A DNA stretch of 64,000 nt, taken from positions 2,852,001-2,916,000 of the forward strand of contig NZ_CP042862.1 in the NCBI RefSeq assembly GCF_008001015.1, given 5' to 3'. A program made the translations under genes and the position numbers. Below the pieces are notes generated by a model, which had not been told where the DNA came from, ran no database searches, and was given only the letters and a program-made list of their open reading frames with translations. Shown in pieces: positions 1 through 64,000 of this stretch. Every line of letters starts with the position of its first letter. Position 1 is the stretch's first letter. This stretch comes from Serinicoccus profundi (GTDB taxonomy: Bacteria > Actinomycetota > Actinomycetes > Actinomycetales > Dermatophilaceae).

Positions 1-786
1 AACACGGTCGCCACCCCCTACCTCTCGCGCCCGATCGAGCACGGCGCCGACATCGTGGTCCACTCGGCGACGAAGTACCTCGGCGGGCACGGCACCGCGA
101 TCGCCGGGGTCATCGTCGACGCCGGCCGCTTCGACTACGGCCAGCAGCCCGACCGGTTCCCCGAGTTCTCCACGCCCGACCCCAGCTACCACGGACTCGT
201 GTATGCCGAGGCGCTCGGCGAGGGCGGGATCCTCGGCGCCAACGTCTCCTACATCATCAAGGCCCGCGTGCAGCTGCTGCGCGACCTCGGGCCGGCGGTC
301 TCACCGTTCAACGCCTTCCTCATCGCCCAGGGCCTGGAGACGCTGTCGCTGCGGATCGAGCGGCACGTGGCCAACGCCCAGCGGGTCGCCGAGTGGCTGG
401 AGGCGCACGAGCAGGTCACCTCGGTCGCGTATGCCGGTCTCCCCAGCCACGCGTCCTACGAGCGGGCCCGGACCTACCTGCCGGGTGGGGCGGGCGCGGT
501 GCTCGCCTTCGAGATCGAGGGCGGCGCCGACGCCGGCCGCGCCTTCGTCTCGGCCCTGGAGCTGCACAGCCACGTCGCCAACATCGGCGACGTCCGCTCC
601 CTCGTGATCCACCCGGCGAGCACGACCCACTCCCAGCTCACGCCGGAGGCGCAGCGGGCTGCCGGGGTCACCCCGGGCCTCGTCCGCCTGTCGGTCGGCA
701 TCGAGGGGATCCAGGACATCCTGGCCGACCTCGAGCAGGGCTTCGCCGCCGCTGCGGCCGTGGTGCGCGGGACGGAGGCGGCCTGA
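1..786 (+). CDS. metY: O-acetylhomoserine sulfhydrylase, C-terminal part (cut by window edge)
   Basis: The reading frame is open from base 1, so the N-terminus lies outside the window. The fragment has the gamma-family Cys/Met-metabolism PLP-enzyme signature HSATKYLGGHG with the PLP lysine at fragment residue 25, followed by the usual C-terminal domain (SLVIHPASTTHSQL, LVRLSVGIEGIQDI). The family makes homocysteine from O-acetylhomoserine and sulfide. It ends one base before the start of metX, whose product makes the O-acetylhomoserine substrate, so the two are clearly one operon. Cystathionine gamma-synthase is a less likely alternative given this neighbour. Confidence 0.9.
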   Translation, partial: NTVATPYLSRPIEHGADIVVHSATKYLGGHGTAIAGVIVDAGRFDYGQQPDRFPEFSTPDPSYHGLVYAEALGEGGILGANVSYIIKARVQLLRDLGPAVSPFNAFLIAQGLETLSLRIERHVANAQRVAEWLEAHEQVTSVAYAGLPSHASYERARTYLPGGAGAVLAFEIEGGADAGRAFVSALELHSHVANIGDVRSLVIHPASTTHSQLTPEAQRAAGVTPGLVRLSVGIEGIQDILADLEQGFAAAAAVVRGTEAA

Positions 787-787
787 G

Positions 788-2026
788 ATGACTGACGCAC
801 CCGATGAGCCCCGGACGCCCGGGCACCCGCTGACCCCGGCACCGGCCCCCGAGGGCGGCCCGCGCTCGCGCCGCCGGACCCAGCCGGTCGGTCCGCTCGC
901 GCTGGAGTCCGGCGAGATCCTCGAGGACGTCCGCGTGACCTACCAGACCTGGGGCCGGCTCGACGCCGACGCCAGCAACGCGGTCCTCGTCCTGCACGCC
1001 CTCACCGGTGACAGCCACGTCGTCGGTGAGCGCGGGCCCGGCCAGGCCACGGCCGGCTGGTGGCCAGGACTCATCGGCCCCGGCTGCCCGATCGACACCG
1101 ACGAGTGGTTCGTCGTCGCCCCCAACGTCCTGGGCGGCTGCGGCGGCACCACCGGACCGTCGTCCGCCGCGCCGGACGGACGCCCCTACGGCAGCTCCTT
1201 CCCCCGCATCAGCGTGCGCGACCAGGTGCACGCCGAGGCCCTGCTCGCCGACCGGCTCGGCATCGACTCCTTCGCCCTGGTCGTCGGCGGCTCCGTCGGG
1301 GGTATGCGCTCCCTGGAGTGGGCGACGAGCCTGCCCTCGCGGGTGCAGCGGTGCGTGGTGCTCGCGGCGAGCGCCGTCGCCAGCGCGGACCAGATCGCCT
1401 GGTCGGTGCCGCAGCTGCACGCGATCCGGCTCGACCCGGCCTTCCACGGTGGCGACTACTACCCGGGCCCAGGCCCACGCGCCGGGCTGGAGATCGCCCG
1501 CCAGATCGCGCACACGACCTACCGCTCGGCGCCCGAGCTGGAGCTGCGCTTCGGGTGCGGCGCGCAGGAGGGCGAGGACGCGCTGCGCGGCGGACGGTAT
1601 GCCGTGCAGTCCTACCTCGAGCACCACGGCAAGAAGCTCGTCCGACGCTTCGACGCCAATGCCTACCTCACGCTGACCGAGGCGATGAACAGCCACGACA
1701 TCGGGCGGGGCCGCGGTGGCGTCACCGCTGCACTCTCCCGCATCACCGCCTCGCTGACGGTGGGGGTCGTGAGCAGCGACCGCCTCTTCACCCCCGCCGA
1801 CGGCCAGGTCATCGCCGGCGCGAGCAGCTGCCGCGAGCTCGCCGTCATCACCAGCCCCTACGGACACGACGCCTTCCTCATCGAGACCGAGCAGGTCTTC
1901 GGCATCATCACGCGCGCCCTGGCCGCGCCGGCCGGGCAGGCGTCCGCGAGGGGAGAGGATCGCGCCGCCGGACAGGAGTCGTCGGGACCTGCGACCCCTC
2001 GCCTCGTCGGCACCGGCCTCTGGTAG
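788..2026 (+). CDS. metX: Homoserine O-acetyltransferase
   Basis: 412-residue alpha/beta-hydrolase-fold acyltransferase. It shows the CPIDTDEWFVVAPNVLGGC block, the nucleophile elbow GGSVGG with catalytic Ser near residue 169, and the C-terminal SPYGHDAF block with the catalytic His near residue 360. It acetylates homoserine with acetyl-CoA. The ATG sits one base after the metY stop (TGAGATG), implying translational coupling. The first 30 residues are Pro/Arg-rich and poorly conserved, so a start slightly downstream is possible. The gene ends inside a bidirectional hairpin shared with the convergent lipoprotein gene. Confidence 0.93.
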   Translation: MTDAPDEPRTPGHPLTPAPAPEGGPRSRRRTQPVGPLALESGEILEDVRVTYQTWGRLDADASNAVLVLHALTGDSHVVGERGPGQATAGWWPGLIGPGCPIDTDEWFVVAPNVLGGCGGTTGPSSAAPDGRPYGSSFPRISVRDQVHAEALLADRLGIDSFALVVGGSVGGMRSLEWATSLPSRVQRCVVLAASAVASADQIAWSVPQLHAIRLDPAFHGGDYYPGPGPRAGLEIARQIAHTTYRSAPELELRFGCGAQEGEDALRGGRYAVQSYLEHHGKKLVRRFDANAYLTLTEAMNSHDIGRGRGGVTAALSRITASLTVGVVSSDRLFTPADGQVIAGASSCRELAVITSPYGHDAFLIETEQVFGIITRALAAPAGQASARGEDRAAGQESSGPATPRLVGTGLW

Positions 2027-2054
2027 ACGCTGCGGACTGCCCTCAGAGGCCGGT
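2012..2054. terminator. Bidirectional hairpin in the ends of two convergent genes
   Basis: Arms ACCGGCCTCTG (2012-2022) and CAGAGGCCGGT (2044-2054) are perfectly complementary around a 21-base loop. The hairpin includes the last codons of metX and of the convergent lipoprotein gene. It has no clear T-run, so it is a probable rather than certain terminator. Confidence 0.5.
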
Positions 2055-3806: not shown

Positions 3807-3858
3807 CACCGCTCGCCGCGCGGCATACCTCGAGCACCACCAACCAAGGAGAATCCTG

Positions 3859-5298: not shown

Positions 5299-6525
5299 AT
5301 GTGGATCCGTGACGTGCGCCCGTGGGGCGGCCCGAGCAGCGACGTGCGACTGGACGGCGAGCTCATCGCCGAGGTATGCCCTCGCCCGCCGGGCTCCCCC
5401 ACGACGGACTCCGACGGCTCGTCGTCGGACACGGAGGTGCAAGGTCGCGGCCGGCTCCTGCTGCCCGCCTTCGCCGACGTCCACGTGCACCTCGACTCGA
5501 CCCGGCTCGGGCTGCCCTTCCGACCGCATACCGGCGGGCCCGGGGTGTGGACGATGATGCTCAACGACCGCCAGCACTGGCGGGACGCCGAGATCCCCCT
5601 CCCCGAGCGCGTCGCCCACACCCTGGAGCTGATGATCGCCCGCGGCACCACCCGGGTCCGGTCCTTCGCCCAGGTCGACGTCGACTGCGGGCTGGAGCGG
5701 CTGGAGGCGGTGCTCGCCGCGCGGGAGACCCACCGCGAGCGCGCCGAGGTGCAGGTCATCGCCTTCCCGCAGGCAGGGCTGCTGCGCGAGGAGGGCTCGG
5801 CGCAGGTGCTGGAGGACGCCCTGCGCGCCGGGGCCGACGTCGTCGGCGGGATCGACCCGTGCACCCTCGACCGCGACCCGGTGCGCCACCTCGACCTCGT
5901 CTTCGGCCTGGCGGAGCGGTATGCCGTGCCCGTCGACATCCACCTGCACGAGACCGGCGAGCTCGGGCGCTTCTCCGCCGACCTCATCCTCGAGCGCACC
6001 GCCGCCCTGGGGATGCAGGGCCAGGTGCTGATCTCGCACGGCTACGGCCTGTGGGACGGCACCGAGTCGCAGACGAGGGGGCTCATCGAGCGCTTCGCCG
6101 AGCTCGACGTGGCGACCGCGACGGTGGCTCCCGGCGGGCGTCAGACCCTCCCGCTGACCGGGCTCGCGGAGGCCGGGGTGCGGGTGGGGCTCGGTGAGGA
6201 CGGGCAGCGCGACTACTGGTCGCCCTACGGCAACGCCGACATGCTCGACCGCACGTGGCAGCTGGCCTTCACCCACGGGTTCCGCGCCGACGACCTCGTC
6301 GAGCACGCCCTCGCGGTCGCCACCCGCGGCGGGGCGAGCATCATGGACCACGACCTGGCCCGGCTCTCCGGCGTCACCGACCGGCCGGGCCTGGCCCCGG
6401 GCGACCGGGCCGACCTGGTGCTCGTCGCGGGCGAGACGCCGACCTCGGCCGTGATGGACCGCTCACCCGAGCGCACCGTCCTGCACCGCGGCCGCGTCGT
6501 CGCCGAGGGGCTCACCCTGGCCTGA
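5299..6525 (+). CDS. Amidohydrolase family protein, cytosine deaminase-like
   Basis: 408 residues. Metal-site motifs of the amidohydrolase superfamily are in order: HVHLD (about 62-66), DIHLHE (about 214-219), SHG (about 247-249) and an Asp in LGEDGQRDYW (about 300). This pattern and length resemble CodA-type cytosine or isocytosine deaminases, but the substrate cannot be read from sequence. An in-frame GTG at 5269 lies inside the upstream terminator hairpin, so the ATG at 5299, seven bases after a TAGTGT box, is the better start. Confidence 0.8.
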   Translation: MWIRDVRPWGGPSSDVRLDGELIAEVCPRPPGSPTTDSDGSSSDTEVQGRGRLLLPAFADVHVHLDSTRLGLPFRPHTGGPGVWTMMLNDRQHWRDAEIPLPERVAHTLELMIARGTTRVRSFAQVDVDCGLERLEAVLAARETHRERAEVQVIAFPQAGLLREEGSAQVLEDALRAGADVVGGIDPCTLDRDPVRHLDLVFGLAERYAVPVDIHLHETGELGRFSADLILERTAALGMQGQVLISHGYGLWDGTESQTRGLIERFAELDVATATVAPGGRQTLPLTGLAEAGVRVGLGEDGQRDYWSPYGNADMLDRTWQLAFTHGFRADDLVEHALAVATRGGASIMDHDLARLSGVTDRPGLAPGDRADLVLVAGETPTSAVMDRSPERTVLHRGRVVAEGLTLA

Positions 6526-6567: not shown

Positions 6568-8316
6568 TCATTGCTCCGGAGGGCGATGAAGGTCGCTGTC
6601 AGCCGACCGCACTCCCCGGCGCAGGACCACGGACTCCCACCCCGGCAGCAGGGCCTGCGAGCGCAGCAGGTCGGCGGCCTCCGGCGAGGTCGCCAGCACC
6701 ACCTCCGCGTCTTGCCAGCCCTCGACGAGCTCGCCCGGCACCGCGACCGGCTCCCGGGTGAAGGCGGCGAAGGTGCGGACCACGACCCCGTCGAGCTCGC
6801 GCTCGACGGCCCAGAGGTCCGGGTGGTCCATCGCCAGCGGGGTGACCGACCCGCGGGCGATGACCGGCTCCGCGTGCCGCAGCGCGATGAGCGCCCGGTA
6901 GTGCTCCAGCACCGAGCCCGGATCCCCCACCTGGGCGGCGGCGTTGACCTGTGCATGGTTGGGGTTGATCCCGATCCAGGGCTCGCCCGTGGTGAAGCCC
7001 GCGCCCGGCTTGGCGTCCCATTGGACCGGCGTGCGGGCGTTGTCGCGGCCCACCTCGAGCAGCCCCGGCAGCACCGTCTCGAACCCCACACCACCACCCT
7101 CCTGCTCGGCGACGTGGTTGAGCGCCTCGATGTCCCGGAAGTCGGTGAGGACCGCGAAGGGTGAGTTCGTCATCCCCAGCTCCTCCCCCTGGTAGACGTA
7201 GGGGGTCCCGCGCAGCGTGTGCAGGACGCTGGCCAGCGTCTTCGCCGAGCGCTCGCGCCACGCCGGGTCGTCGTCGCCGAAGCGGCTCACCGCGCGTGGC
7301 TGGTCGTGGTTGTCCCAGTAGAGCGAGTTCCAGCCGACGTCGGCGAGCGCGACCTGCCAGCCCATGAGGCTCTCGCGCAGCTGCGGCATCGTCACCGGCC
7401 GCCGGTCGAACTTCCCGCCCGGCCCGATCCCCAGGTCGACGTGCTCGAACTGGAAGACCATGTCGACCTCGCGCCGCGCGGGGTCGGTGTAGAGGCGGGC
7501 GTCGTGGGTGGTGACGCCGGGCATCTCACCGACGGTGAGGAAGGCCCGCGGGTGCGCGGCGAAGACCTGCTCGTGCATCTCGGCGAGGAACTCGTGCACC
7601 CGGGGCCCGTCGGCGACGAGGGTGAAGGAGGTGCCGTCGGGCAGCCCCTCGGGCTTGGAGATGAGGTTGATGACGTCCATCCGGAAGCCGTCGACCCCGC
7701 GGTCCAGCCACCAGCGCATCATGGCGTAGACCGCCTCGCGCACCTGCGGGTTCTCCCAGTTGAGGTCGGGCTGCTTGCGGCTGAAGAGGTGCAGGTAGTA
7801 CTCCCCGCTCGCCGCGTCCCACTCCCATGCCGGGCCGGAGAAGAAGGAGCGCCAGTCGTTGGGCTCCGCGCCGGGCTCTCCCCCGGTATGCCCCTCGCGC
7901 GGCGGCCGCCACCAGTACCAGTCGCGGCGCTCTGAGGTCGGCGCGCTGCGGCTGTCCTGGAACCACGGGTGCTCATCGCTCGTGTGGTTGACCACGAGGT
8001 CCATGACGAGCCGGATCCCGCGGGCGTGCAGCGCCTCGATGAGCTCGTCGAGGTCGGCGAGGCTCCCGAAGGTGGGGTCGACGTCCTGGTAGTCGCTGAT
8101 GTCGTAGCCGTTGTCGTCCTGCGGGCTGCGGTAGACCGGGCTCAGCCAGACGACATCGACCCCGAGGTGCTCGAGATGGTCGAGGTGGTCGAGGATGCCG
8201 CGCAGGTCGCCGATCCCGTCGCCGTCGCTGTCGGCGAAGCTGCGCGGATAGATCTGGTAGACGACGGCGGAGGTCCACCAGTCGCGCGGCAGAGGTTGCT
8301 CGAGGGGGAACGGCAT
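6568..8316 (-). CDS. Alpha-glucosidase, GH13 (oligo-1,6-glucosidase type)
   Basis: 582 residues, normal for the family. It opens with WWTSAVVYQIYPRSFADSDGDG, typical of GH13 subfamilies 17/23/31. Catalytic residues are visible: nucleophile Asp214 in GFRMDVIN, acid/base Glu264 in VGEMPGV, and transition-state Asp338 in WDNHDQPR. It hydrolyses alpha-linked gluco-oligosaccharides in the cytoplasm; no signal peptide is present. Trehalose-6-phosphate hydrolase is an alternative, but no trehalose PTS lies nearby. Next to gluconate genes, it may feed glucose use. Confidence 0.88.
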   Translation of the reverse strand: MPFPLEQPLPRDWWTSAVVYQIYPRSFADSDGDGIGDLRGILDHLDHLEHLGVDVVWLSPVYRSPQDDNGYDISDYQDVDPTFGSLADLDELIEALHARGIRLVMDLVVNHTSDEHPWFQDSRSAPTSERRDWYWWRPPREGHTGGEPGAEPNDWRSFFSGPAWEWDAASGEYYLHLFSRKQPDLNWENPQVREAVYAMMRWWLDRGVDGFRMDVINLISKPEGLPDGTSFTLVADGPRVHEFLAEMHEQVFAAHPRAFLTVGEMPGVTTHDARLYTDPARREVDMVFQFEHVDLGIGPGGKFDRRPVTMPQLRESLMGWQVALADVGWNSLYWDNHDQPRAVSRFGDDDPAWRERSAKTLASVLHTLRGTPYVYQGEELGMTNSPFAVLTDFRDIEALNHVAEQEGGGVGFETVLPGLLEVGRDNARTPVQWDAKPGAGFTTGEPWIGINPNHAQVNAAAQVGDPGSVLEHYRALIALRHAEPVIARGSVTPLAMDHPDLWAVERELDGVVVRTFAAFTREPVAVPGELVEGWQDAEVVLATSPEAADLLRSQALLPGWESVVLRRGVRSADSDLHRPPEQ

Positions 8317-8323
8317 ACCCGCG

Positions 8324-8869: not shown

Positions 8870-10305
8870 GGCACGACCACCCACAGCCCGGCGGCGATGA
8901 CGAAGATGGCCAGTCCGAGCGTGGTCTCCATGACGGTCCAGGTGCGCAGCGTCGTCTTGACGTCCATCCCGAAGAACCTGCTGACCAGCCAGAACCCGGA
9001 GTCGTTGACGTGGGACAGCACGGTGGCACCGGCGGCGATGGCCAGCACGAGGCAGGCGATCTTGAGGTCGGAGAGCCCCTCGGCGGTGACGGCGGCGGAG
9101 ATGAGACCCGCGGTCGTCGTGAGCGCCACGGTCGCCGAGCCCTGCGCGACGCGCAGGAGGGTGGCGATGAGGAAGGCGGAGACGATGAGGGGCAGACCGA
9201 GGTCGGCGAGGCTCTCGGAGAGCGCGGCGCCGATGCCGGAGTAGCGCAGCACCCCGCCGAACATCCCGCCCGCGCCGGTGATGAGGATGATCGCGCAGAT
9301 CGGCCCGAGGGCGTCGTTGAGCAGGCTCTCGACGGTCGCGAGCGAGCGGCCCTTGGTCCCGAGGACGTAGGTCGTGACGAGCAGCGTAATGAGCAGCGCG
9401 ACCGGCGTCTGCCCGATGAACACGAGCGCGTCCAGGACCCCGCTGTCGCCGAGCACCTCGGCCGAGCGCAGCGTGCCGATACCGGTGTTGAGCGCGATGA
9501 GGGCGAAGGGCAGGAGCAGCAGGCCGAGGACGAGACCGAAGGACGGCGGCGCCACCTGCTCCTCACCTCGCGCGATCCGCTCGGCCCGCGCGTCGTGGTC
9601 GCCGTCGTCGAGGTCGGAGGCCTCGCCCGACACGGTGCCCCGCAGCATGGTGTCGTTGATCGGCACCATGACCTTGCCGGCATACGCGGTGGTGAAGAGG
9701 TAGACGCCGACGTACCACGCGACGAAGGCCGCGGGGATCCCGATGAGCATGCTCAGCCCGATGGACCCCCCGAGCTCGGTCGCGGCCGTGACCGGGCCGG
9801 GGTGCGGCGGCACGATCGCGTGCATGGCGGCGAAGGCGCCGGCGGCGGGGATGGCGTACAGCAGCACCGACCCGCCGAAGCGGCGGGCGACGGAGAAGAT
9901 GATCGGCAGGAAGACGACGAGCCCGGCGTCGAAGAAGATGGGTATGCCGAAGAGCAGGGCCGCGATGCCGAGGGCGAAGGGTGCGCGCTGCTCGCCGAAG
10001 CGGTTGATGAGGGTGTCGGCGAGCACCTGCGCCCCACCGGTGACCTCCAGGAGGCGGCCGATCATCGCCCCGAGGCCGACGAGGAGCGCCACCGAGCCCA
10101 GGGTGGTGCCGAAGAAGCTCGTCGCGACCCCGGCCAGCTCGCCGAACGGGATGCCCGCCGCGAGACCGGTGAGGAGGCTGACCGTGACGAGCGCCACGAA
10201 GGCGTGCATCCGCAGCTTGATGATGAGGAACAGCAGGACCGCGACGGCGACCGCCGCAATGGTGAGCAGGGTGCCTGCTCCGTAGACAGGATCCATCGGC
10301 TCCAT
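8866..10305 (-). CDS. gntP: Gluconate:H+ symporter
   Basis: 479 residues with about 12 membrane segments. It contains GntP-family signatures (GIPIFFDAGLVVFLPIIFSVAR, AIVPPHPGPVTAATELGG, CAIILITGAGGMFGGVLRYSGIG). It imports gluconate for the overlapping kinase gene. The ATG at 10305 has GGGAGG about 8 bases upstream; a second ATG lies three codons in. Immediately upstream is a stretch that would encode only a Pro/Gly-rich extension, so the longer frame is rejected. A GntR-type regulator is not present next to it. Confidence 0.92.
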   Translation of the reverse strand: MEPMDPVYGAGTLLTIAAVAVAVLLFLIIKLRMHAFVALVTVSLLTGLAAGIPFGELAGVATSFFGTTLGSVALLVGLGAMIGRLLEVTGGAQVLADTLINRFGEQRAPFALGIAALLFGIPIFFDAGLVVFLPIIFSVARRFGGSVLLYAIPAAGAFAAMHAIVPPHPGPVTAATELGGSIGLSMLIGIPAAFVAWYVGVYLFTTAYAGKVMVPINDTMLRGTVSGEASDLDDGDHDARAERIARGEEQVAPPSFGLVLGLLLLPFALIALNTGIGTLRSAEVLGDSGVLDALVFIGQTPVALLITLLVTTYVLGTKGRSLATVESLLNDALGPICAIILITGAGGMFGGVLRYSGIGAALSESLADLGLPLIVSAFLIATLLRVAQGSATVALTTTAGLISAAVTAEGLSDLKIACLVLAIAAGATVLSHVNDSGFWLVSRFFGMDVKTTLRTWTVMETTLGLAIFVIAAGLWVVVP

Positions 10306-11036: not shown

Positions 11037-11077
11037 CGGCTCCACCCGGGCAGGGTATGCCGCCCAGGCGTCTCTCC

Positions 11078-13891: not shown

Positions 13892-13998
13892 CGGAGGTTC
13901 CCTCGGGCAGGGGGGCAGGTGGGCACACCCAGGGTATGCCGCCTGCCGCCCCCTCCGTGAGCGCGGCCCGTCCGGCTCGGCCCTTCGTCCCTCGCGGC

Positions 13999-22669: not shown

Positions 22670-23036
22670 GTCCGCTGCCCTCCGCCCTACTGACGTCCGG
22701 TATGCCGCACCCGCGCCGGTCGGCGAGCGCCGCGCCCGCGGCAGGGCCACGCTCGCTCGGCCGTGCCCGTCGACACCCGGCCTGGGCCGACACGGCATAC
22801 CTCGGCTGTCCCAGGCGCCACATCTGCCCCTCGGTGCCAGGACAACCGGCCGTGCGCAGGGCGGATTCAGGACATGCAGCGCGCACAGCCTGATGTCCTG
22901 GCAGGTCGTGGCAGGAGCGACACGTGTGACGCCGAGGGGCACAAGCCTCGGTGCGTCGGGACCGATCCGAGCTCGACCCGCCCGACCAGCACTGTCGCCG
23001 CGACCGGCACGAACAGGCCGGACCCGAGCTCGCCCC
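22670..23036. other. Intergenic stretch without a supported gene
   Basis: No frame here has convincing protein character. Two GTATGCC/GGCATAC words occur (about 22701 and 22793). The inverted pair TGCCAGGACA (about 22838) and TGTCCTGGCA (about 22890) could fold. I see no promoter or RNA gene that I can name. Confidence 0.5.
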
Positions 23037-25984: not shown

Positions 25985-26031
25985 ACGGCATACCCTGTGG
26001 ACAACTTCTGCGGGGCGACGCCGACCTCTCC

Positions 26032-49643: not shown

Positions 49644-49687
49644 ATACCTGGGTCACCCCGGCAGGAAGGGGTATGCCGGGGTGACGT

Positions 49688-51383: not shown

Positions 51384-53696
51384 ATGTCATTCGGTGTGCT
51401 GCAGGTCCTCGCCATCGTGGTCGCGGGCCTGGTGACCTTGGCCGCGGTCGCCCTCTTCGTCCGGACCATCGCCGGCTTCGTCGCGCAGTTCCGGCTGGGG
51501 CAGCCCGAGCGGCGGACCGACGAGCCGGGCGCCCGCACGACCACGCTGCTGCGCGAGGTGGTGGGGCATACCCGCATGGCGCGCAAGCCGTGGGTCGCCG
51601 TCGCCCACTGGGTGGTCATGGTCTCCTTCGGGCTGCTCTTCCTCACCCTGGTCACCGCCTACGGCCAGGTGGTCGACCCCCACTTCGTCCTGCCGCTCAT
51701 CGGGCACTTCTGGCCCTACGAGTGGCTCACCGAGCTCTTCGGCTGGGGTGCGGTCGTCGGCATCATCGCCCTCATCGTCGTCCGGCAGCGGCAGCACCCG
51801 CGCGGCATGGGGCGCCGGTCACGCTTCTGGGGCTCGACCTTCTGGCAGGCGTATGTCGTGGAGTTCGTCATCCTCGGCGTGGGCCTGGCCATCGTCGCGC
51901 TGCGCGCGCTGGAGTATGCCCTCGGCCGGGCCACCGGCGAGGCCTGGGCGAGCGCCCTGCACTTCCCGCTCACCGCCTGGCTGGGCGGCCTCCTGGCCGG
52001 TGCCTCCGCCGCCACGCTCGAGGGGTGGATCATCGGCGTCGCCCTGGTGAAGATCCTCATCTCGATGGCCTGGATGATCATCATCGCCCGCACCCCGACG
52101 ATGGGTGTGGCCTGGCACCGCTTCCTCGCCTTCTTCAACATCTGGTTCAAGCGTCACCCCGACGGCGCCACGTCGCTGGGCGCCGTGCAGCCCATCACCG
52201 TCGCCGGTGAGCCCGTCGACTTCGAGAACATCGAGGAGCTGCCCGAGGACGCCGCCCTCGGCGTCGGCAAGGTCGAGGACTTCACCTGGAAGGGCCTGCT
52301 CGACTTCTCCACCTGCACCGAGTGCGGTCGCTGCCAGGAGCAGTGCCCGGCGTGGCACACCGACAAGCCGCTCTCGCCCAAGATGCTCATCAAGAACCTC
52401 CGCGACCAGCACCACGCCATCGCCCCGTGGCTGCAGGCCGGCGAGGAGCACCGGGAGGCGGCCGCGAAGGCGCTGGAGGCCGCCGGCGGGCCGGGCGCCG
52501 AGGGCCTCCCGGAGGAGTTCCACGGCATCCCCACCACCGCGGTGCTCGCCGCCCAGCGGCCCCTCGTCGGGGAGACCGAGGGCGACCCGACGGTCCCCGA
52601 CGGGGGCGGCATCATCGACCCCGAGGTGCTGTGGTCCTGCACCACGTGCGGCGCGTGCGTCGAGCAGTGCCCGGTCGACATCGAGCACGTCGACGCGATC
52701 GTCGACATGCGGCGCTACCAGAACCTCATCGAGTCAGCCTTTCCCTCCGAGCTCGGCGGGCTCTTCAAGAACCTCGAGAACAAGGGCAACCCGTGGGGCA
52801 TGAACGCCCGGCTGCGGATGGACTGGGCCAAGGATCTCGACTTCGACGTGCCGATCGTCGGCGAGGACCTCGAGAGCCTGGCGGAGATGGACTACCTCTT
52901 CTGGGTCGGGTGCGCCGGCGCCTTCGAGGACCGCGCCAAGAAGACGACGCGGGCGGTCGCCGAGCTGCTGCATACCGCCGGGGTGAGCTTCGCGGTGCTC
53001 GGCGACGGCGAGAGCTGCACCGGTGACCCGGCCCGCCGCAGCGGCAACGAGTTCCTCTTCCAGATGCTCGCGATGCAGAACGTCGAGGTCCTCAACGAGG
53101 CGGGCGCGAGCAAGATCGTCGTCACCTGCGCCCACTGCTTCAACACGCTGAAGAACGAGTACCCCCAGGTCGGGGGGCAGTTCGAGGTCGTCCACCACAC
53201 CCAGCTGCTCAACCGCCTCGTGCGCGAGAAGCGGCTGACGCCGGTCTCCCGTCCCGACGCCGCCGACAGCTCTGGGGCCGCGTCCACGGCGGAGTCGGTG
53301 ACCTACCACGACCCGTGCTACCTCGGCCGGCACAACCAGGTGTATGCCCCGCCGCGCGAGCTCATCGGCGCGCTGCCGGGGGTGCAGCTCACCGAGATGC
53401 CGCGGCACGCGGAGAAGTCGTTCTGCTGCGGCGCCGGCGGCGCGCGCATGTGGATGGAGGAGAAGCTCGGCACCCGGATCAACCTCAACCGCACCGAGGA
53501 GGCGCTGGCCACCGGCGCCGACCGGATCGCCATCGGCTGCCCCTTCTGCCGGGTCATGCTCTCCGACGGGCTCACCCAGAAGCAGGCCGAGGGCGCCCGC
53601 GAGGAGGTCGAGGTCGTCGATGTCGCCCAGATGCTGCTCGCCGCCGTGCGCCGGGGTGACCAGCCGGCCGAGCCCGCGCCCAGCACCGAGGACTGA
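51384..53696 (+). CDS. Membrane (Fe-S)-binding oxidoreductase, heterodisulfide-reductase-like
   Basis: 770 residues. Five or six membrane helices fill about 1-240 (NarI-like domain). Two 4Fe-4S motifs follow: CTECGRCQEQCP (about 311-322) and CTTCGACVEQCP (about 418-429). Two CCG cysteine-rich domains lie after (VGCAGAFEDR, CAHCFNTL, HDPCYLG, SFCCGAGGARMW). It should pass electrons between a soluble donor and the quinone pool. The donor may be an electron-transfer flavoprotein or a similar carrier, but none is encoded next to it. Confidence 0.87.
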   Translation: MSFGVLQVLAIVVAGLVTLAAVALFVRTIAGFVAQFRLGQPERRTDEPGARTTTLLREVVGHTRMARKPWVAVAHWVVMVSFGLLFLTLVTAYGQVVDPHFVLPLIGHFWPYEWLTELFGWGAVVGIIALIVVRQRQHPRGMGRRSRFWGSTFWQAYVVEFVILGVGLAIVALRALEYALGRATGEAWASALHFPLTAWLGGLLAGASAATLEGWIIGVALVKILISMAWMIIIARTPTMGVAWHRFLAFFNIWFKRHPDGATSLGAVQPITVAGEPVDFENIEELPEDAALGVGKVEDFTWKGLLDFSTCTECGRCQEQCPAWHTDKPLSPKMLIKNLRDQHHAIAPWLQAGEEHREAAAKALEAAGGPGAEGLPEEFHGIPTTAVLAAQRPLVGETEGDPTVPDGGGIIDPEVLWSCTTCGACVEQCPVDIEHVDAIVDMRRYQNLIESAFPSELGGLFKNLENKGNPWGMNARLRMDWAKDLDFDVPIVGEDLESLAEMDYLFWVGCAGAFEDRAKKTTRAVAELLHTAGVSFAVLGDGESCTGDPARRSGNEFLFQMLAMQNVEVLNEAGASKIVVTCAHCFNTLKNEYPQVGGQFEVVHHTQLLNRLVREKRLTPVSRPDAADSSGAASTAESVTYHDPCYLGRHNQVYAPPRELIGALPGVQLTEMPRHAEKSFCCGAGGARMWMEEKLGTRINLNRTEEALATGADRIAIGCPFCRVMLSDGLTQKQAEGAREEVEVVDVAQMLLAAVRRGDQPAEPAPSTED

Positions 53697-54465: not shown

Positions 54466-54831
54466 TCACTGACCGAGGCGGCTCGGGGGGCCCGGCCGCT
54501 GTGATCCGCGCAGCTGGTCGCTCACCCACCCGGCATACGCCTCCAGGGCGTCCACCACCGGCACGGCCATGATCTCCGGCACCTCGTAGGCGTGCAGCGA
54601 CTGCACCACCTCGCAGACCGGTGTGAAGCCGGCGCGTGTGGTCTTGACGAGGAGCAGCCACTCCTTGCTCTCGTGGACCTGCCCGCTCCAGCTGTAGATC
54701 GAGGTCATCGGCCCGAGGATCTGCACGCACGCGGCGACCTTGCGCGCGACGAGCTCTTCAGCGATGTGTCTGGCGGACTCCATCGTGGGCACGCTGACGC
54801 GGGCCTCCACGAGCTCCGAGAGATCGTTCAT
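54466..54831 (-). CDS. cutA: CutA-type divalent-cation tolerance protein
   Basis: 121 residues. Family blocks are VARKVAACVQILGPMTSIYSW, the KEWLLLVKTT strand and LHAYEVPEIMAVPV. CutA forms trimers; its role in metal tolerance is debated. AGGAAGC precedes the ATG. The tail after RGSQ is a short Pro-rich extension. Confidence 0.92.
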   Translation of the reverse strand: MNDLSELVEARVSVPTMESARHIAEELVARKVAACVQILGPMTSIYSWSGQVHESKEWLLLVKTTRAGFTPVCEVVQSLHAYEVPEIMAVPVVDALEAYAGWVSDQLRGSQRPGPPSRLGQ

Positions 54832-54855: not shown

Positions 54856-56178
54856 TCACGGTGTCACGTCCGCCAGGGCGTCGCCGAGGATCGCCACGCC
54901 ACGGGAGGCGTCCTCGTCGGTGATCACGCACGGCGGCACCAGGTGCACACGGTTGGCTACGACCAGGGGCCACATCCCCCGCTCCAGGCATCCTGCCTGC
55001 ACCGCCTTCATCGTCTCACCGGAGGCAGGTTCGCGCGAGGCCTGATCTGCGACGAGCTCGACCACCCAGAAGACCCCGAGCCCGCGCACATCGCCCACCA
55101 GCGGGTTCGTCCCCATGAGCGCGGTCGCGGCGGGCCCGAGACTGTGCTCGCCGACCTGCGCGGCGTGCTCCACGATTCCCTCCTCGCGCATGATCTTGAT
55201 GGCCGCCACCGCCGACGCCGTGGCCAGCGCGTGACCCGAGTAGGTCAGCCCGCCGGGGAAGGGCCGCTCGTCGAAGGTCGCCGCCACCGGGTCGCCGATG
55301 ATGACGCCGCCGAGCGGGACGTACCCGGAGTTGACGCCCTTGGCGAAGGTGATGAGGTCAGGCCGCACCCCCCAGTGGTCGAGCGCGAACCACGCGCCGG
55401 TGCGGCCGAAGCCGGCCATGACCTCATCGAGGATGAGCAGCATCCCGAACTCGTCGCAGAGGGCGCGCACCCCTTCGAGGTAGCCCGGCGGCGGCACGAG
55501 GATGCCGTTGGAGCCCACCACGGTCTCCAGGATGATCGCGGCGACCTGGCCGGGCCCCTCGGCCTCGACGGTGTGCCGCAGGTGCAGCAGGGCGCGCTCG
55601 CTCTCCTCCTCCGGCGTGGTGGCGTGGAACTCGCTGCGGAACAGGTGCGGGCCCCAGAAGTGGACGACCCCGGGCATACCCGGCTCGCCGCCCCACCGGC
55701 GCGCCTCGCCGGTGAGCGTGATCGCCCCGGCCGTGGCGCCGTGGTAACTGCGGTAGGACGCGAGGATCTTGTGCCGACCGGTGTGCGCGCGGGCCATCCG
55801 CAGGGCGTTCTCGTTGGCCTCCGCGCCACCGTTGGTGAAGAAGATTTTGCTCATGCCCTCCGGCGCGAGTCCCGCGATGAGTGCGGCGGCCTCGGCGCGG
55901 CTCTCCTCGGCGAAGGCGGGCGCGACCGTGGTCAGCCGCTCGGCGGCCCGGGCGATCGCGGCCGACAGTCTCGGGTGCTGGTAGCCGATGTTGACATTGA
56001 CGAGCTGGGAGGAGAAGTCGAGGAAGCGCCGGCCCTGGTAGTCCCAGAAGTAGGCGCCCTCTCCCCCGGCCAGCGGCAGCGGGTCGATCGCCTGCTGGGC
56101 CGACCAGGACGTCATCACGTGGGCGCGGGACAGCTCCCGGATGCGGGCGTCGCGCGCGGGGTCCGGTGTCATCGTCAT
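54856..56178 (-). CDS. Class III PLP aminotransferase
   Basis: 440 residues. Motifs of class III enzymes are WDYQGRRFLDFSSQLVNVNI, FFTNGGAEANENALRMAR, LILDEVMAGFGRTGAWF and the PLP lysine in ITFAKGVNSGYVPLGG. Group type suggests an omega-amino-acid or beta-alanine:pyruvate substrate. The ATG at 56178 follows TAGAGT by seven bases, whereas the much longer open frame upstream is out of character. Confidence 0.87.
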   Translation of the reverse strand: MTMTPDPARDARIRELSRAHVMTSWSAQQAIDPLPLAGGEGAYFWDYQGRRFLDFSSQLVNVNIGYQHPRLSAAIARAAERLTTVAPAFAEESRAEAAALIAGLAPEGMSKIFFTNGGAEANENALRMARAHTGRHKILASYRSYHGATAGAITLTGEARRWGGEPGMPGVVHFWGPHLFRSEFHATTPEEESERALLHLRHTVEAEGPGQVAAIILETVVGSNGILVPPPGYLEGVRALCDEFGMLLILDEVMAGFGRTGAWFALDHWGVRPDLITFAKGVNSGYVPLGGVIIGDPVAATFDERPFPGGLTYSGHALATASAVAAIKIMREEGIVEHAAQVGEHSLGPAATALMGTNPLVGDVRGLGVFWVVELVADQASREPASGETMKAVQAGCLERGMWPLVVANRVHLVPPCVITDEDASRGVAILGDALADVTP

Positions 56179-56242: not shown

Positions 56243-57874
56243 ATGGCTGAGGCGCTGGCGCACACCACCGGGGCGGACCACCCCCCGCTGCTGGAGCAGA
56301 CCATCGGGGACAACCTCGACGAGACCGCGGCGGAGCACGCCACCCGGGAGGCCTTGGTCGAGGTCGCGACCGGCCGACGGTGGACGTATGCCGAGCTCGT
56401 CGCCGACGTCGACCTGCTGGCCCGGGCGTTCGTCGCCTCCGGGGTGGGCACCGGCGACCGGGTCGGCATCTGGGCGCCGAACTGCGCTGAGTGGACCCTC
56501 GTGCAGCTGGCGACGGCCAAGATCGGCGCCATCCTGGTGACCATCAACCCCGCCTACCGCGCGCACGAGCTGGGCTACGTCCTGCGGCAGTCGGGGGTGA
56601 GCACGATCGTCGTCGCCCGCGAGTTCAAGGGCACGAGCTATCCCGACCTCGTGGCGCTGGTGCGCGAGGACTGCCCGGAGCTGGCGCAGGTGGTCGTCAT
56701 CGGCGACGAGGGGTGGGACGAGCTGCTCGCCGGGGCGCACCAGGTCAGCCGCGGCCGGTTGGCCGAGCTCCAGGCGAGCCTCACCCCGGACCAGCCCATC
56801 AACATCCAGTACACCTCCGGCACCACCGGCTTCCCCAAGGGCGCCACGCTCTCCCACCGCAACATCCTCAACAACGGCTACTTCGTGGGCGAGGGGTGCC
56901 GCTACACCGAGCGCGACGTGATCTGCATACCCGTGCCGTTCTACCACTGCTTCGGCATGGTCATGGGCAACCTCGCAGCGACCACCCACGGGGCCTGCAT
57001 GGTCATCCCCGGCCCGGGTTTCGACCCCGCCGCGACGTTGCGGGCGGTGCGCGAGGAGCAGTGCACGTCGCTCTACGGCGTGCCGACGATGTTCATCGCC
57101 GAGCTCGAGCTCATCGAGCGCAGCGACGAGGTCTCGCTGGAGGACCTCGCCTCGGTCCGCACCGGCATCATGGCCGGCTCGCTGTGCCCGGCCTCGGTCA
57201 TGCGCACGCTCATCGACGCCGGGGTGGAGGAGATGACCATCTGCTACGGCATGACGGAGACCTCGCCGGTGTCGACCCAGACCGCGCCGGACGACCCCTT
57301 CGACGCCAAGGTCGGCACCGTCGGCCGGGTGATGCCCCACCTGGAGATCCAGATCGTCGACCCCGCCACGCGGGAGGTCGTCCCCCGCGGCACGCCGGGC
57401 GAGTTCTGCACCAAGGGTTACTCGGTCATGCTCGGCTACTGGGATGAGCCGGAGAAGACGGCCGAGGTGCTGCAGGACGGCTGGATGGCGACCGGTGACA
57501 TCGGGGTCATGGACGAGGACGGGTATGTCGAGATCACCGGCCGGATCAAGGACCTCATCATCCGCGGCGGGGAGAATGTCTACCCGCGGGAGGTGGAGGA
57601 GTTCCTCTACACCCACCCCGACGTCGTGGACGCCCAGGTGGTGGGGGTGCCCGACGAGCGCTACGGCGAGGAGCTCATGGCGTGGGTGCGGCTGCGGGAG
57701 GGGGCCGAGCCGCTCACCGCGGAGGCCGTCAAGGACTTCTGCACGGGCTCGCTGGCGCACTACAAGATCCCGCGGCACGTGCAGGTCATCGAGGAGTTCC
57801 CCATGACTGTCACCGGCAAGGTCCGCAAGGTGGAGCTGCGCGAGCGCGGCGAGGAGCTCCTCCGCCACCCCTGA
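56243..57874 (+). CDS. AMP-binding acyl-CoA synthetase
   Basis: 543 residues. The P-loop is YTSGTTGFPKGATLSH, the core contains YGMTETSPV, and the hinge is ATGDIGVMDEDGYVEITGRIKDLII, with Lys in TGKVRKVELRE. It activates a carboxylate, most likely a fatty or short-chain acid, with ATP and CoA. GGATGGGGG is the weak ribosome site before the ATG at 56243. Confidence 0.9.
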   Translation: MAEALAHTTGADHPPLLEQTIGDNLDETAAEHATREALVEVATGRRWTYAELVADVDLLARAFVASGVGTGDRVGIWAPNCAEWTLVQLATAKIGAILVTINPAYRAHELGYVLRQSGVSTIVVAREFKGTSYPDLVALVREDCPELAQVVVIGDEGWDELLAGAHQVSRGRLAELQASLTPDQPINIQYTSGTTGFPKGATLSHRNILNNGYFVGEGCRYTERDVICIPVPFYHCFGMVMGNLAATTHGACMVIPGPGFDPAATLRAVREEQCTSLYGVPTMFIAELELIERSDEVSLEDLASVRTGIMAGSLCPASVMRTLIDAGVEEMTICYGMTETSPVSTQTAPDDPFDAKVGTVGRVMPHLEIQIVDPATREVVPRGTPGEFCTKGYSVMLGYWDEPEKTAEVLQDGWMATGDIGVMDEDGYVEITGRIKDLIIRGGENVYPREVEEFLYTHPDVVDAQVVGVPDERYGEELMAWVRLREGAEPLTAEAVKDFCTGSLAHYKIPRHVQVIEEFPMTVTGKVRKVELRERGEELLRHP

Positions 57875-58050: not shown

Positions 58051-58821
58051 ATGAGCCTGGACTACTCACAGATGTTCCGCCTCGACGGTCAGCACGCCGT
58101 GGTGGTCGGGTGCGGCGGGATCGGCGCGGAGATCGTCGCGGGCCTGGCCGCCCAAGGCGCGCGTGTGACCTGCCTCGACAAGGACCTGACGGTCGCCCAA
58201 GCGGCGCTCGAGCGGGCGCCGGGAGGGGCGGCATACCCCGTGGACGTCCTCGACCCGGGCGACCTGGAGTCGCGTGCCGGCGACCTCGGCGACGTCGACG
58301 TGCTGGTGCTCACCGCGGCGATGAACGTCCGCAAGCGGCTGCTGGACTACACCGCCGAGGAGTTCGACCGGGTGGTCGACCTCAACCTGCGCGGCACGTT
58401 CTCCGCCGTGCGCGCTTTCGCGCCCGCGATGGTCGAGCGCGGACGCGGGTCGATCGTCACGCTCACCTCGATCCGCGCGGTCGTGGTCGAACCTGGTCAG
58501 GGGGTGTATGCCGCCACGAAGGCCGGCGTCATGCAGCTCGTCCGCACGTGGTCGGCCGAGCTCGGACCGGCCGGTGTGCGGATCAACGCCGTCGCGCCGG
58601 GCGTCGTGGAGACGCCACTCACTCAGCAGATCCGCGACGACGAGCAGTGGGATCGGGCGTATGCGCAGAAGGCCGCGTTGGGCAGGTGGGCGCGACCCGA
58701 GGAGATGGTCGGCGCCGTGTGCTGGCTGGCCTCCGACGCCGCCAGCTTTGTCACCGGGAGCCAGGTGATGGTCGACGGCGGATGGACGGCGATCGACGGA
58801 CGGTTCACGCCGCCCACCTGA
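58051..58821 (+). CDS. Short-chain dehydrogenase/reductase
   Basis: 256 residues. The cofactor loop is GCGGIGAEIVAGLA. The catalytic Tyr-Lys pair is in YAATKAG with the Ser in TLTSIRA, and WLASDAASFVTGSQVMVDGG is the usual C-terminal block. NAD(P)-dependent; substrate unknown. The gene is bracketed by family A arrays of opposite orientation on either side. Confidence 0.9.
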   Translation: MSLDYSQMFRLDGQHAVVVGCGGIGAEIVAGLAAQGARVTCLDKDLTVAQAALERAPGGAAYPVDVLDPGDLESRAGDLGDVDVLVLTAAMNVRKRLLDYTAEEFDRVVDLNLRGTFSAVRAFAPAMVERGRGSIVTLTSIRAVVVEPGQGVYAATKAGVMQLVRTWSAELGPAGVRINAVAPGVVETPLTQQIRDDEQWDRAYAQKAALGRWARPEEMVGAVCWLASDAASFVTGSQVMVDGGWTAIDGRFTPPT

Positions 58822-61193: not shown

Positions 61194-62302
61194 CTGCGCC
61201 AGGTGCCGGCCGGGGTGGTGACGCTCTCCGCGGCCAGGAGCGCCCGCACCATGGCGCGGGTCACCACCTCTCCGCTGGTATGCAGCATCGCGTGGAAGGC
61301 GGCGGGGTCCGGTCGCTCCCGGCCGCAGGTCGCGAGCCCGAAGAGGCTGTCGCCGTCGAACATCGTGTGGATGGGGTTGACCGCCCGGGCCATGCCGTCG
61401 TGACCGCTGGTCGCGAGCCGGGCACACTGCGCCGGGTCCAGGGTGGCGTCGGTCGCGATCACGCCGATGGTCGTCGCCAGCGAGCGCGGCACCGAGCTGC
61501 GCGCGTTGGCCTCTGCGGCGGCCGACCGGGCGGCCTCCAGCTCCGAGGGCACCGGCCGTCGCGGCGCGACACCGGCCGGCCAGTCCCCGAGCCCGTCGAG
61601 GTCCTCGGCGACCAGGTGCCGGGCGCCCCACAGCTCACCGGTGGCGAGGTCGACGGCCGACCCGACCGCATTGACGACGACGAGCGCCGCGACCGTCGTG
61701 CCGTCGGCCAGCACCCCGCTGGCGGTGCCCACACCGCCGCGCAGCCCACCCACCTGGGTGCCGGTCCCGGCGCCGACGCTCCCCTGCGGGACCACGCCCA
61801 CGCTGCGGGCTCCGGTGTCACCCGCGTTGCCCTGGCCGGCGCGATACTCCCCGGCCTCACCCGCCGCCTCACCCGCCGCCGCGAGCGCAGCCGCACCGAA
61901 ACCGGCGTCCGGGAAGGCCCCGAAGTCCCCTCCCCGCCCGAGGTCGAAGCACACCGCGGCCGGCACGATCGGCACCACCTCGCCCGGTCCACCCATGGGG
62001 AAGCCGCGACCCTCGGCATACAGCTCGCGCATGACGCCGTCCGCGGCGGCGAGGCCGAAGGCGGACCCGCCGGAGAGGACGACGGCGTGGACGCGTTCGA
62101 CGAGGTTGCGGGGGTCGAGCAGGTCGGTCTCGCGGGTGCCGGGGGCGCCGCCGCGGACGTCCGCACCGGCGACCGCACCTTCCGGAGGGCAGCGGACCAC
62201 GGTGGTGCCGGTGAGGTAGCCGTCGCCGACCCGCTGGTGGTGGCCGACCGCCAGGCCGGGCACGTCGAGCAGGGAGTTGGTCAGGCCGGCGGTGCGCTCC
62301 AT
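61154..62302 (-). CDS. P1 family peptidase (DmpA/N-terminal nucleophile type)
   Basis: 382 residues. GxGGSAFGLAAADGV-type core, and the autoprocessing site LATTIGVIATDATLD with Thr277/278 as likely nucleophile after self-cleavage. Family members are aminopeptidases or amidases of varied substrate. Its C-terminal end overlaps the DHFR-like gene (61154-61193). Confidence 0.85.
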   Translation of the reverse strand: MERTAGLTNSLLDVPGLAVGHHQRVGDGYLTGTTVVRCPPEGAVAGADVRGGAPGTRETDLLDPRNLVERVHAVVLSGGSAFGLAAADGVMRELYAEGRGFPMGGPGEVVPIVPAAVCFDLGRGGDFGAFPDAGFGAAALAAAGEAAGEAGEYRAGQGNAGDTGARSVGVVPQGSVGAGTGTQVGGLRGGVGTASGVLADGTTVAALVVVNAVGSAVDLATGELWGARHLVAEDLDGLGDWPAGVAPRRPVPSELEAARSAAAEANARSSVPRSLATTIGVIATDATLDPAQCARLATSGHDGMARAVNPIHTMFDGDSLFGLATCGRERPDPAAFHAMLHTSGEVVTRAMVRALLAAESVTTPAGTWRSYRDAFPSATGVR

Positions 62303-62314
62303 GGGCTCAGCCTG

Positions 62315-63718
62315 TCACGTGCCCAGCGCGGTGAGGATCTCCTCGACCTTGGCCTTGGCGTCGCCGAAGATCATCTGGGTGTTGTCCCGGAAGAAGAGCG
62401 GGTTCTGGACGCCGGCGTAGCCTGGCGCCATCGAGCGCTTGAAGACCACGACCTCACGCGCCTCCCACACCTGGAGGACAGGCATACCCGCGATCGGGCT
62501 GCCCGGCTGTTCGATCGCCGCGGGGTTGACGGTGTCGTTGGCGCCGATGACGAGCACGACGTCGGTGCCGGCGAGGTCGCCGTTGACCTCGTCCATGCCG
62601 AGCACGATGTCGTAGGGCACCCGCGCCTCGGCGAGCAGGACGTTCATGTGCCCCGGCAACCGGCCGGCCACGGGGTGTATGCCGAAGCGCACGGAGACCC
62701 CCAGCTCACCCGGGCGCTCGACGAGGCGGGCGACCGGGTGCTGCGCGTGCGCGACCGCCATGCCGTAGCCAGGCGTGATGACGACGGAGCGCGCCTGGCG
62801 CAGCATCTCGGCCACCCCCTCCGCGCCGACCTCACGGTGCGTGCCCTGCTCCTCACCGCCGTCGGCACCGACCACCGGATCGGCACCGAAACCGCCGGCG
62901 ATGACGGAGACGAAGGAGCGGTTCATCGCCGTGCACATGATCCAGGACAGGATCGCGCCGGAGCTGCCGACGAGGGCGCCGGTGATGATGAGCAGGTCGT
63001 TGCCGAGCATGAAGCCCGCCGCGGCCGCGGCCCACCCGCTGTAGGAGTTGAGCATCGAGACGACGACCGGCATGTCGCCGCCGCCGATCGAGGCGACGAG
63101 GTGCGCCCCCAGCGCCAGCGCCAGCCCGGTGAGGATGAGCAGCGGCACCAGGCCGGGGGCCGCGACGAACCAGACGGACACCACGAGGCCGGCCAGCACG
63201 ACGACGAGGTTGAGCAGGTGCCTCCGCGGGAGCATGAGCGGGGCGCTCTTCATCCGGGCGGAGAGCTTGGCCCAGGCCACGACCGACCCGGTGAAGGTCA
63301 CGGCCCCGATGAAGACGCCGGCGGCGATCTCGACACGCTGACTCACCCCGGCCGCGCCGGTGGGCCCCTCCCCGAGGTAGGTGTTGATGCCGACGAGGAC
63401 AGCCGCCACCCCGACGAAGCTGTGCAGGATCGCGACGAGCTCCGGCATACCGGTCATGGCCACGACCCGCGCCCGCCAGATCCCGATGCCCGCACCGAGC
63501 GACATCGCCGCCGCGATGAGCAGCAAGGTCGTCAGCGCACCCCGTTCGGCGGTGCTGACCGCGAGCACCACGGTGGCGACGAGCGCGAGAGCCATGCCGC
63601 CGATCCCGAGGAGGTTGCCGCGCCGCGCGGACTCGTGCCGGGACAGCCCCGCCAGCGCGCCCAGGAAGAGCAGGGCCGCGACGAGGTATGCCGCGTCGAC
63701 GGCCGAGGTCAGCGTCAC
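62315..63718 (-). CDS. pntB: NAD(P) transhydrogenase subunit beta
   Basis: 467 residues. Eight or nine membrane helices (about 5-260) are followed by the NADP(H) domain with [38 protein letters not shown] and the [23 protein letters not shown] region (in parts). It uses the proton gradient to reduce NADP+ from NADH. The GTG at 63718 overlaps the pntAB stop by four bases. Confidence 0.94.
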
Positions 63719-63981
63719 GACTCGGCTTTCCGGAACATCCCGAGCATCCGGTGGGTCACGGTGAAGCCGCCGAAGATGTTGATCGAGGCCACGGTGATGC
63801 CCACCAGGGCGAGCGCCGTGACCCAGGTGCTGCTGCTGCCGACCTGCAGGATCGCGCCGACGCAGATGATCCCGCTGATCGCGTTGGTCACCGACATGAG
63901 CGGGGTGTGCAGTGCGTGGGTCACGTGCGAGACGACGTAGTAGCCGGCGATGACCGACAGCGCGAAGACGGTGAGGTGCAT
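63715..63981 (-). CDS. pntAB: NAD(P) transhydrogenase subunit alpha, membrane part
   Basis: 88 residues from the ATG at 63981, preceded by GGAGGAG six bases upstream. Three membrane helices with the conserved block [22 protein letters not shown]. The open frame continues to the window edge, so a slightly longer start cannot be excluded. The NAD-binding subunit should lie just outside the window. Confidence 0.85.
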
Positions 63982-64000
63982 CCGCAGCTCCTCCGGGGCG

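Follow-up and report, generated by a model that had tools for sequence, protein, structure and literature searches.

DNA uptake sequences (DUS) are recognised by ComP, a DUS-specific minor pilin of the type IV pilus, and the words known as Chi and FtsK-orienting polar sequences (KOPS) are strand-skewed along replichores. DUS and uptake signal sequences (USS) have been described for Pasteurellaceae and Neisseriaceae (passages of PMC7811141), the genome of S. muelleri holds two DUS dialects (a section of PMC3630211), and pairs of DUS as well as of USS can form terminator-like stems (excerpts of PMC2397512 and PMC7811141). The word HIP1 and alternate highly iterated palindromes (HIPs) replace each other and track methyltransferases, according to excerpts of PMC4390886. 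Here we analyse a short word of Serinicoccus profundi, the heptamer GTATGCC (GGCATAC on the other strand), starting from a 64 kb stretch, the window, that spans bases 2,852,001–2,916,000 of a single-contig genome of 3,475,711 bases. Handles with G, g and L denote genomes, genera and loci or stretches, the window's genome being G000. Our data suggest, tentatively, that GGTATGCCG (core GTATGCCG) may be a chromosome-wide self-recognition word, most likely one for DNA uptake.

Abundance, conservation and layout of the word

Exact counting in the window gave 32 copies of GTATGCC and 27 of GGCATAC, the same numbers that an initial annotation had estimated by eye; base composition predicts about 6 for both together, as it had also reckoned, and GTACGCC and GGCGTAC, which it considered rare, occur in 1 and 2 copies. 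All 21 of the 21 single-base neighbours of GTATGCC are present at 0–15 copies in the window, compared with 59 for the word itself. The chromosome carries 1259 forward and 1221 reverse copies, 2480 in all or 713 per Mb, a 17-fold excess over the reversed-word control (70 + 74). In a 464 kb sample of G000, made of 20 stretches of 20 kb and the window, GTATGCC is the most over-represented 7-mer (368 versus 23.7 expected under a second-order Markov model), and its 21 neighbours all lie at 1–112; higher-order Markov scores mask the signal, since the sub-words of GTATGCC are inflated too. The heptamer extends to GGTATGCCG, with G preceding it in 267 and following it in 291 of the 368 copies. This 9-mer is found 662 + 661 times in G000 versus 3 + 3 for the reversed 9-mer, an excess of ∼220-fold (1323 versus 6). 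Over 23 bins, word count and G+C give a Spearman coefficient of 0.38 (P = 0.07). The word is confirmed as a real chromosome-wide signal, larger than the initial annotation supposed.

A custom codon-usage gene caller gave 426 genes in the 464 kb sample (84.6% coding), and 40 synonymous-codon shuffles of these genes served as the null model. The genes hold 283 copies, whereas the shuffles have a mean of 32.9 and a maximum of 46. All six frame and strand classes are enriched 5- to 15-fold over the shuffles, the observed and expected counts being 8/0.7, 19/3.8 and 145/18.9 for the sense phases and 32/2.5, 25/3.6 and 54/3.5 for the antisense ones. Spacers contain 77 copies against 5.2 expected, that is 1.07 per kb versus 0.74 in genes, with 8 gene-edge sites excluded from gene and spacer counts alike. 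The excess in all frames and in spacers that the initial annotation described is borne out by this codon-preserving comparison; the positions it named are off by no more than two bases, and all five of the spacer copies it cited fall between called genes. Of the TAT codons in called genes 145 of 309 fall within the word, and of the ATA codons 32 of 47.

Alignment of G000 with G121 supports conservation of the word beyond codon usage. G000 and G121 are ∼83% identical across their aligned parts, and in synonymous comparisons between them the tyrosine codon TAT stays TAT in 37 of 45 cases inside the word versus 13 of 49 outside (P = 5e–8). The same test with G108, which has fewer words, is not significant (13 of 28 inside, 10 of 40 outside, P = 0.08). 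The whole word is retained in 76 of 111 aligned cases from G000 to G121, or in 67 of 93 once sites with local identity <0.7 are removed, compared with 35% for 7-mers overall and 49% for three-A/T words. Among 7-mers with at least 40 sites its retention ranks 8 of 952, 23 of 941, 6 of 694 and 14 of 936, and lower toward the word-poorer G108 (105 of 685 from G000, 204 of 897 from G121).

Aligned words with a single mismatch were summed over six directed comparisons, which are unpolarised and therefore mix gains and losses. Such words (n = 87) are spelled GTACGCC in 23 cases, GTAGGCC in 19, GGATGCC in 14, GTGTGCC in 8 and GTATGCG in 8, while eight further spellings account for the remaining 15. 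The changes they imply are C>T (24), G>T (33), G>A (8), G>C (8) and others (14), and 49 of the 87 are transversions. CTACGCC, two changes off, is also frequent, e.g. at 10 of 94 sites from G121 to G108. GTACGCC itself is depleted in the 464 kb sample (17 copies versus 105 in the synonymous shuffles). In the G000 set GTATGCC reaches 793 per Mb and the sum of GTATGCC and GTACGCC 855 per Mb, which is 3.3 to 4.9 times the 175–260 per Mb of that sum in four word-less family sets (G114, Janibacter, Phycicoccus and G178). In Kribbella and Nocardioides loci, which lie outside the family, the sum is ∼1,040 per Mb, nearly all of it GTACGCC, so the pool-size argument is restricted to the family. The tetranucleotide GTAC has an observed/expected ratio of 0.37–0.54 in all enriched Ornithinimicrobium sets (L010–L029, the window, L030–L049), a depletion that apparently exceeds what loss of GTACGCC alone accounts for, and is depleted more mildly in G114 (0.69) and Janibacter (0.80); CTAG is low across the family sets (0.12–0.39).

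No strand or origin–terminus skew of the kind raised by the initial annotation was found in G000: besides the near-equal strand totals, the counts in the 20 stretches are 71/66 and 86/86 in two coordinate halves, which assume an origin near base 1 and a terminus opposite. Neighbours within 300 bp are fewer than random in G000 (58 versus 79) and in G121 (45 versus 68), a deficit reached in each genome by 1 of 1000 random placements (P = 0.001). Pairs within 100 bp are inverted in 15 of 17 cases in G000 (P = 0.002), and few of them form stems.

All copies in the window are exact matches. Those on the forward strand lie at 201–207, 429–435, 1597–1603, 2943–2949, 5374–5380, 5919–5925, 7886–7892, 9942–9948, 11055–11061, 11381–11387, 12907–12913, 13934–13940, 18586–18592, 20465–20471, 22700–22706, 24272–24278, 25645–25651, 28735–28741, 30129–30135, 32612–32618, 33510–33516, 36600–36606, 40664–40670, 45475–45481, 47771–47777, 49671–49677, 51914–51920, 53342–53348, 56386–56392, 58506–58512, 62677–62683 and 63686–63692. 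Those on the reverse strand, read as GGCATAC on the forward one, lie at 3822–3828, 8312–8318, 9679–9685, 10801–10807, 11691–11697, 15299–15305, 15662–15668, 20636–20642, 22794–22800, 23322–23328, 25987–25993, 26789–26795, 27107–27113, 33015–33021, 34016–34022, 35786–35792, 37177–37183, 39414–39420, 44127–44133, 47832–47838, 51565–51571, 54532–54538, 55673–55679, 58230–58236, 62015–62021, 62481–62487 and 63444–63450. By the gene calls, the copies that start at 13934, 22700, 49671, 22794, 25987 and 34016 are in spacers; 22700 with 22794 and 47771 with 47832 make inverted pairs.

Distribution and dialects in the family

Among the nearest named relatives of a 770-residue protein encoded in the window are Ornithinimicrobium cerasi (L091, 82%) and further members of the old Intrasporangiaceae, a group that GTDB places in Dermatophilaceae. 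Cuts were set on GTATGCC density alone (enriched, ≥150 per Mb; word-poor, <60 per Mb). A comparison of related genomes, suggested by the initial annotation, found 110 of 186 family genomes enriched, 63 word-poor and 13 between. In the genus of G000, 30 of 31 genomes pass the cut, the exception being G114; G008 and G084 are lone genomes below it within their own genera. The reversed control is also high in some genera (e.g. G005, G006, G009), in part, we think, from CCGTATG overlapping the C-type form CCGTATGCC. In the two genomes checked there the 9-mer is still clear of its reversed control, with 182 + 169 versus 28 + 33 in G006 and 218 + 248 versus 24 + 12 in G007. Among 228 genomes of the order outside the family, GGTATGCCG has at most 33 copies per strand in all, and a few exceed the control (e.g. 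G282, 33 + 28 versus 4 + 4).

GTATGCC is preceded by C in 57 of 73 copies of Terrabacter type and, in G000, by G in 226 of 309; G follows it in 71 of 73, 60 of 63, 24 of 24 and 39 of 40 copies of other genera and in 241 of 309 in G000. Words of the GTACGCCG type, in which the main word takes its C form, show a mild enrichment in word-poor G014, G089 and G002 (19–22 bins versus 3.0–4.8 expected; L219, L220, L233, L234, L245, L246). GTATGCC is very dense in an actinomycete metagenome-assembled genome (MAG), with 40 copies in 22 kb, and in Metallococcus carri, with 24 in 22 kb (L146, L166). A locus labelled as an Acidobacteria MAG (L090, isolate ATN4) carries an 81% relative of the window protein and 4 word copies; it may be an Ornithinimicrobium contig that was misbinned.

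Searching the GTATGCC-poor loci for words de novo yielded GGATGCCG in Humibacillus and G178, GAATGCCG in a Phycicoccus MAG, CCCCCTTCG in Janibacter and GTATGCG in Nostocoides sp. F2B08, and no clear word in many other word-poor loci. The core ATGCCG is common to GTATGCCG, GGATGCCG and GAATGCCG; the word GCGAAGGGG of g27 and g36 has a different core. We counted GRATGCCG and GCGAAGGGG across all 186 family genomes. The former has 1,038–2,298 copies per strand in eight genomes of four genera (G017, G018, G034–G037, G047, G178) and at most 738 in all others. The latter reaches 230–971 copies per strand in each of the 19 genomes that make up g27 and g36, against 6–63 in the remaining 167. We infer that g27 and g36 are Janibacter-type genera because their marker word is also carried by four named Janibacter loci. 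Across genomes the words largely exclude one another, although G036, G037 and G047, rich in GRATGCCG, are above the GTATGCC cut as well. Among close pairs in Janibacter loci, 13 of 21 have the inverted '+-' orientation, and eight of these form perfect or near-perfect terminator-like stems, spaced by 28–36 bases.

Some weaker signals were noticed in the same searches. GTATGCG (L117, 13 bins versus 1.4) and GAATGCCG (L139, 16 versus 0.9) are candidate further dialects, and in genus g46 GRATGCCG is mildly raised in G153 (674 + 557) and G158 (684 + 669), the other ten genomes having 281–500 per strand. G114 (L046, L207, L208) has a weak candidate of its own, GGTAGCGGC, in 16 bins versus 1.7 expected, among similar-scoring repeats; G108 (L051, L060; 40 kb) has TCTACCTCG in 11 bins versus 0.3 besides the main word; and Piscicoccus intestinalis (L121, 22 kb) has GGAGCCGGT in 13 bins versus 0.7, possibly another word. 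Outside the family, words with a TGATCA palindrome are over-represented in Microlunatus parietis (L168), with CATGATCA in 10 bins versus 0.6. CCCCTGGGA, CCCGTGGGA and AAGAACGCC were dropped, as they are local repeats of one gene in small loci. In Knoellia and Phycicoccus (L132, L138, L134) a repeat-rich gene adjoins the query homologue, and one frame of the repeat DNA reads D-P-W-D-E-P by eye.

A proposed role in DNA uptake and the alternatives

G000 carries ComEA, ComEC and a Tad locus, with Pfam matches to ComEA-type SLBB/HHH, Competence, T2SSE, T2SSF, TadE and Tad; two more open reading frames (ORFs), one Flp-like and one a second TadE-like, gave no Pfam match and were named by eye. Transformation of Micrococcus luteus needs ComEA and ComEC. 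It also depends on Flp pili (PMC4322843, whose searched text does not mention uptake sequences). It is because of these genes, of the Flp-pilus transformation of M. luteus and of a layout like that of DUS and USS that we place uptake first. A putative sequence-specific DNA-binding protein would read GGTATGCCG to choose DNA in natural transformation, and fragments bearing the word would be bound and then imported via the Tad/Flp pilus with ComEA and ComEC. By recombining into the chromosome such fragments would spread the word and hold it, in all frames, at some hundreds up to a thousand copies per Mb, and an altered receptor preference could convert one word into another, giving rise to dialects. 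These bacteria would then be competent, with uptake that depends on the word and on such a receptor. With a little more reserve, we consider that the family may run independently evolved uptake sequences in at least three genus-level dialects, including the complete change of word in Janibacter-type genera, with a putative receptor on a Tad/Flp-type machine and not on a type IV pilus.

It should be noted that several observations weigh against uptake. ComEC is present in 180 of 186 family genomes, equally where the word is missing, and T2SSF/Tad domains are present in all 57 genomes tested out of the 186, with or without it; all six Tad-locus ORF clusters are found in 7 of 8 word-poor genomes examined, and the enriched G110 is without several small pilin ORFs in the gene calls made here. 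These genes, present with and without the word, were therefore rejected as a discriminating trait. Among 20 loci we found no basic receptor-like Tad pilin restricted to enriched genomes, no Tad pilin distinguished by charge and no receptor candidate among Tad pilins. The type IV pilus marker PilM_2 occurs in 7 of 186 genomes and was not found in G000; type IV pili were accordingly rejected, and a receptor of the ComP type would not be expected where PilM is so scarce. None of the three words is carried by 42 of the 63 word-poor genomes, and the Janibacter word has no core in common with the others. The latter word also shows no avoidance of close neighbours (28 versus 29 within 300 bp), and the deficit in G108 is not significant (31 versus 37, P = 0.17). 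Just 4 copies lie in the first 20 kb of the chromosome, with its core replication genes.

Traces of import are likewise lacking. Flanks of lost sites are less conserved than those of kept sites in 3 of 6 comparisons (P = 0.03, 0.001 and 0.02), but this divergence shows nothing beyond control words, which behave alike: flank identity is 0.83–0.84 at kept words, 0.87–0.88 at kept CTACGCC, 0.85–0.87 at GCACGCC and 0.81–0.89 at GGATGCC. Insertions relative to sister species, some of which possibly reflect sister losses, are not word-poor in six small comparisons (9/9.6, 10/11.6, 4/4.5, 2/1.0, 2/4.6 and 3/1.0 copies, observed/expected from the density in aligned DNA). Recently acquired genes in Neisseria differ in this respect, as DUS are scarce there (a passage of PMC2397512). 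On the side of uptake, GTATGCC is not in excess (3 versus 3.7 expected) in phage TJE1 of the family member Tetrasphaera jenkinsii, whose host genome is outside the comparison; GGATGCCG occurs there 7 times versus 3 expected. Plasmid searches with a window gene and an insertion sequence gene as queries returned nothing useful. A transposase gene, IS256-family-like by its plasmid matches, lies at L010:15078–16364, ∼3.6 kb after a gyrA-like ORF (by eye).

The main rival to uptake is a cytosolic reader: selection would keep thousands of binding sites for a chromosomal protein with a different role, in nucleoid organisation, repair, replication or the handling of chromosomes, and the dialects would track its evolution. 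We regard this rival as rather unlikely, though it shares all the DNA-level evidence from shuffles, aligned variants and TAT retention, and it is favoured by uptake genes that are universal and do not track the word and by insertions that carry the word too. Against it, the copies in G000 have no strand or half skew, unlike KOPS or Chi, and the spelling is rigid, with 21 neighbours far below the word in the 464 kb sample. Most nucleoid-protein sites are looser in spelling than GTATGCC. An essential organiser would also be hard to reconcile with the unrelated word that every g27 and g36 genome uses. A KOPS-like segregation word was rejected, there being no skew toward the terminus, so that the segregation option of the initial annotation, in its skewed kind, is disfavoured.

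A HIP1-like system, in which the word would be generated and maintained by an orphan DNA methyltransferase acting with methylation-dependent repair, is improbable. Replacement of one word by another among genomes is seen here as well, but HIPs are palindromic, whereas GGTATGCCG differs from its own reverse complement. Methylase profiles were obtained for 51 genomes chosen from the 186 (26 enriched, 24 word-poor and G022, of middle density and uncounted); they covered two families, type I, IIG, III and Dam-like enzymes being outside the test. The C5 family (PF00145) is missing in 10 and the N4/N6 family (PF01555) in 18 of the enriched genomes, both at once in 8 (G007, G079, G108, G110, G112, G115, G117, G169); in the word-poor genomes they are present in 11 and 12, respectively. 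HIP-type methylases of these two families were rejected on this ground.

A Chi-like site regulating RecBCD is very improbable. Chi-type words are abundant and differ between genera, and RecC is present in 30 of 31 genomes of the genus, the exception G122 being 75% complete. Yet 49 of the 110 enriched genomes have RecC, compared with 36 of the 63 word-poor ones, a difference that runs the wrong way for Chi (Fisher exact test, P = 0.12); the enriched G006 and G007 have no RecC while their congener G008 has RecC but not the word, and strand skew is absent. RecBCD/Chi was rejected since RecC does not track the word (Chi of AdnAB or AddAB type being outside this test), and the recombination option of the initial annotation is disfavoured in that form.

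Least credible of all is a mutation bias turning methylated GTACGCC into GTATGCC by deamination: although GTACGCC is depleted and is the commonest single-mismatch aligned word, 63 of the 87 differences are other than C>T, the pool of both words in G000 far exceeds that of word-less family sets, TAT in the word is retained and not merely produced, and 10 of 26 enriched genomes are without the C5 methyltransferase domain, so that this bias, in its simple form, and any single mutation bias were rejected. Of the two explanations offered by the initial annotation, DNA-level function or deamination, the former is supported by frame-independence, spacer enrichment, conservation beyond codon usage and the replacement of the word in related genera, and the latter falls.

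Comparison with known systems

In open-licence papers, preprints not included, we found no description of these words, of uptake sequences in these or other actinobacteria, or, in the literature searched, of a DNA-reading protein for such a word. If uptake is the true function, sequence-gated DNA exchange would have arisen once more, on a different pilus and in Gram-positive Actinobacteria, and it would provide both a species barrier and a genetic handle for genera that are hard to transform. If it is not, a word under selection at ∼700 sites per Mb that is respelled from one sister genus to the next would still require a protein that reads DNA.

Like Chi and KOPS, the word is short, non-palindromic and over-represented genome-wide; unlike them, it has no replichore skew here, and its ∼220-fold excess over the reversed 9-mer is far higher than that of a typical Chi. 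With HIP1 of cyanobacteria it shares the character of a highly iterated clade word that is lost or replaced in some members, but it is non-palindromic, and neither of the two methylase families tested follows the words. It differs from DUS and USS in its actinobacterial host with 72% G+C, in the type IV pilus marker not found in G000 and in the word of one genus group that has no common core, and from DUS in that a small test found no shortage of it in inserted DNA. We have not filed it as a DUS because two tested features, scarcity in acquired DNA and a type IV pilus with its receptor, are not found here. In layout and evolution the word nevertheless resembles DUS and USS. Thousands of copies are spread over both strands, within coding DNA and outside it, and form the top over-represented word with a rigid spelling; there are inverted pairs, stem-forming in Janibacter loci, and the word is conserved amid less conserved surroundings. 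As in the DUS and USS of the excerpted texts (PMC3630211, PMC2397512, PMC7811141), clades have their own dialects, some genomes carry two words and some members are free of any.

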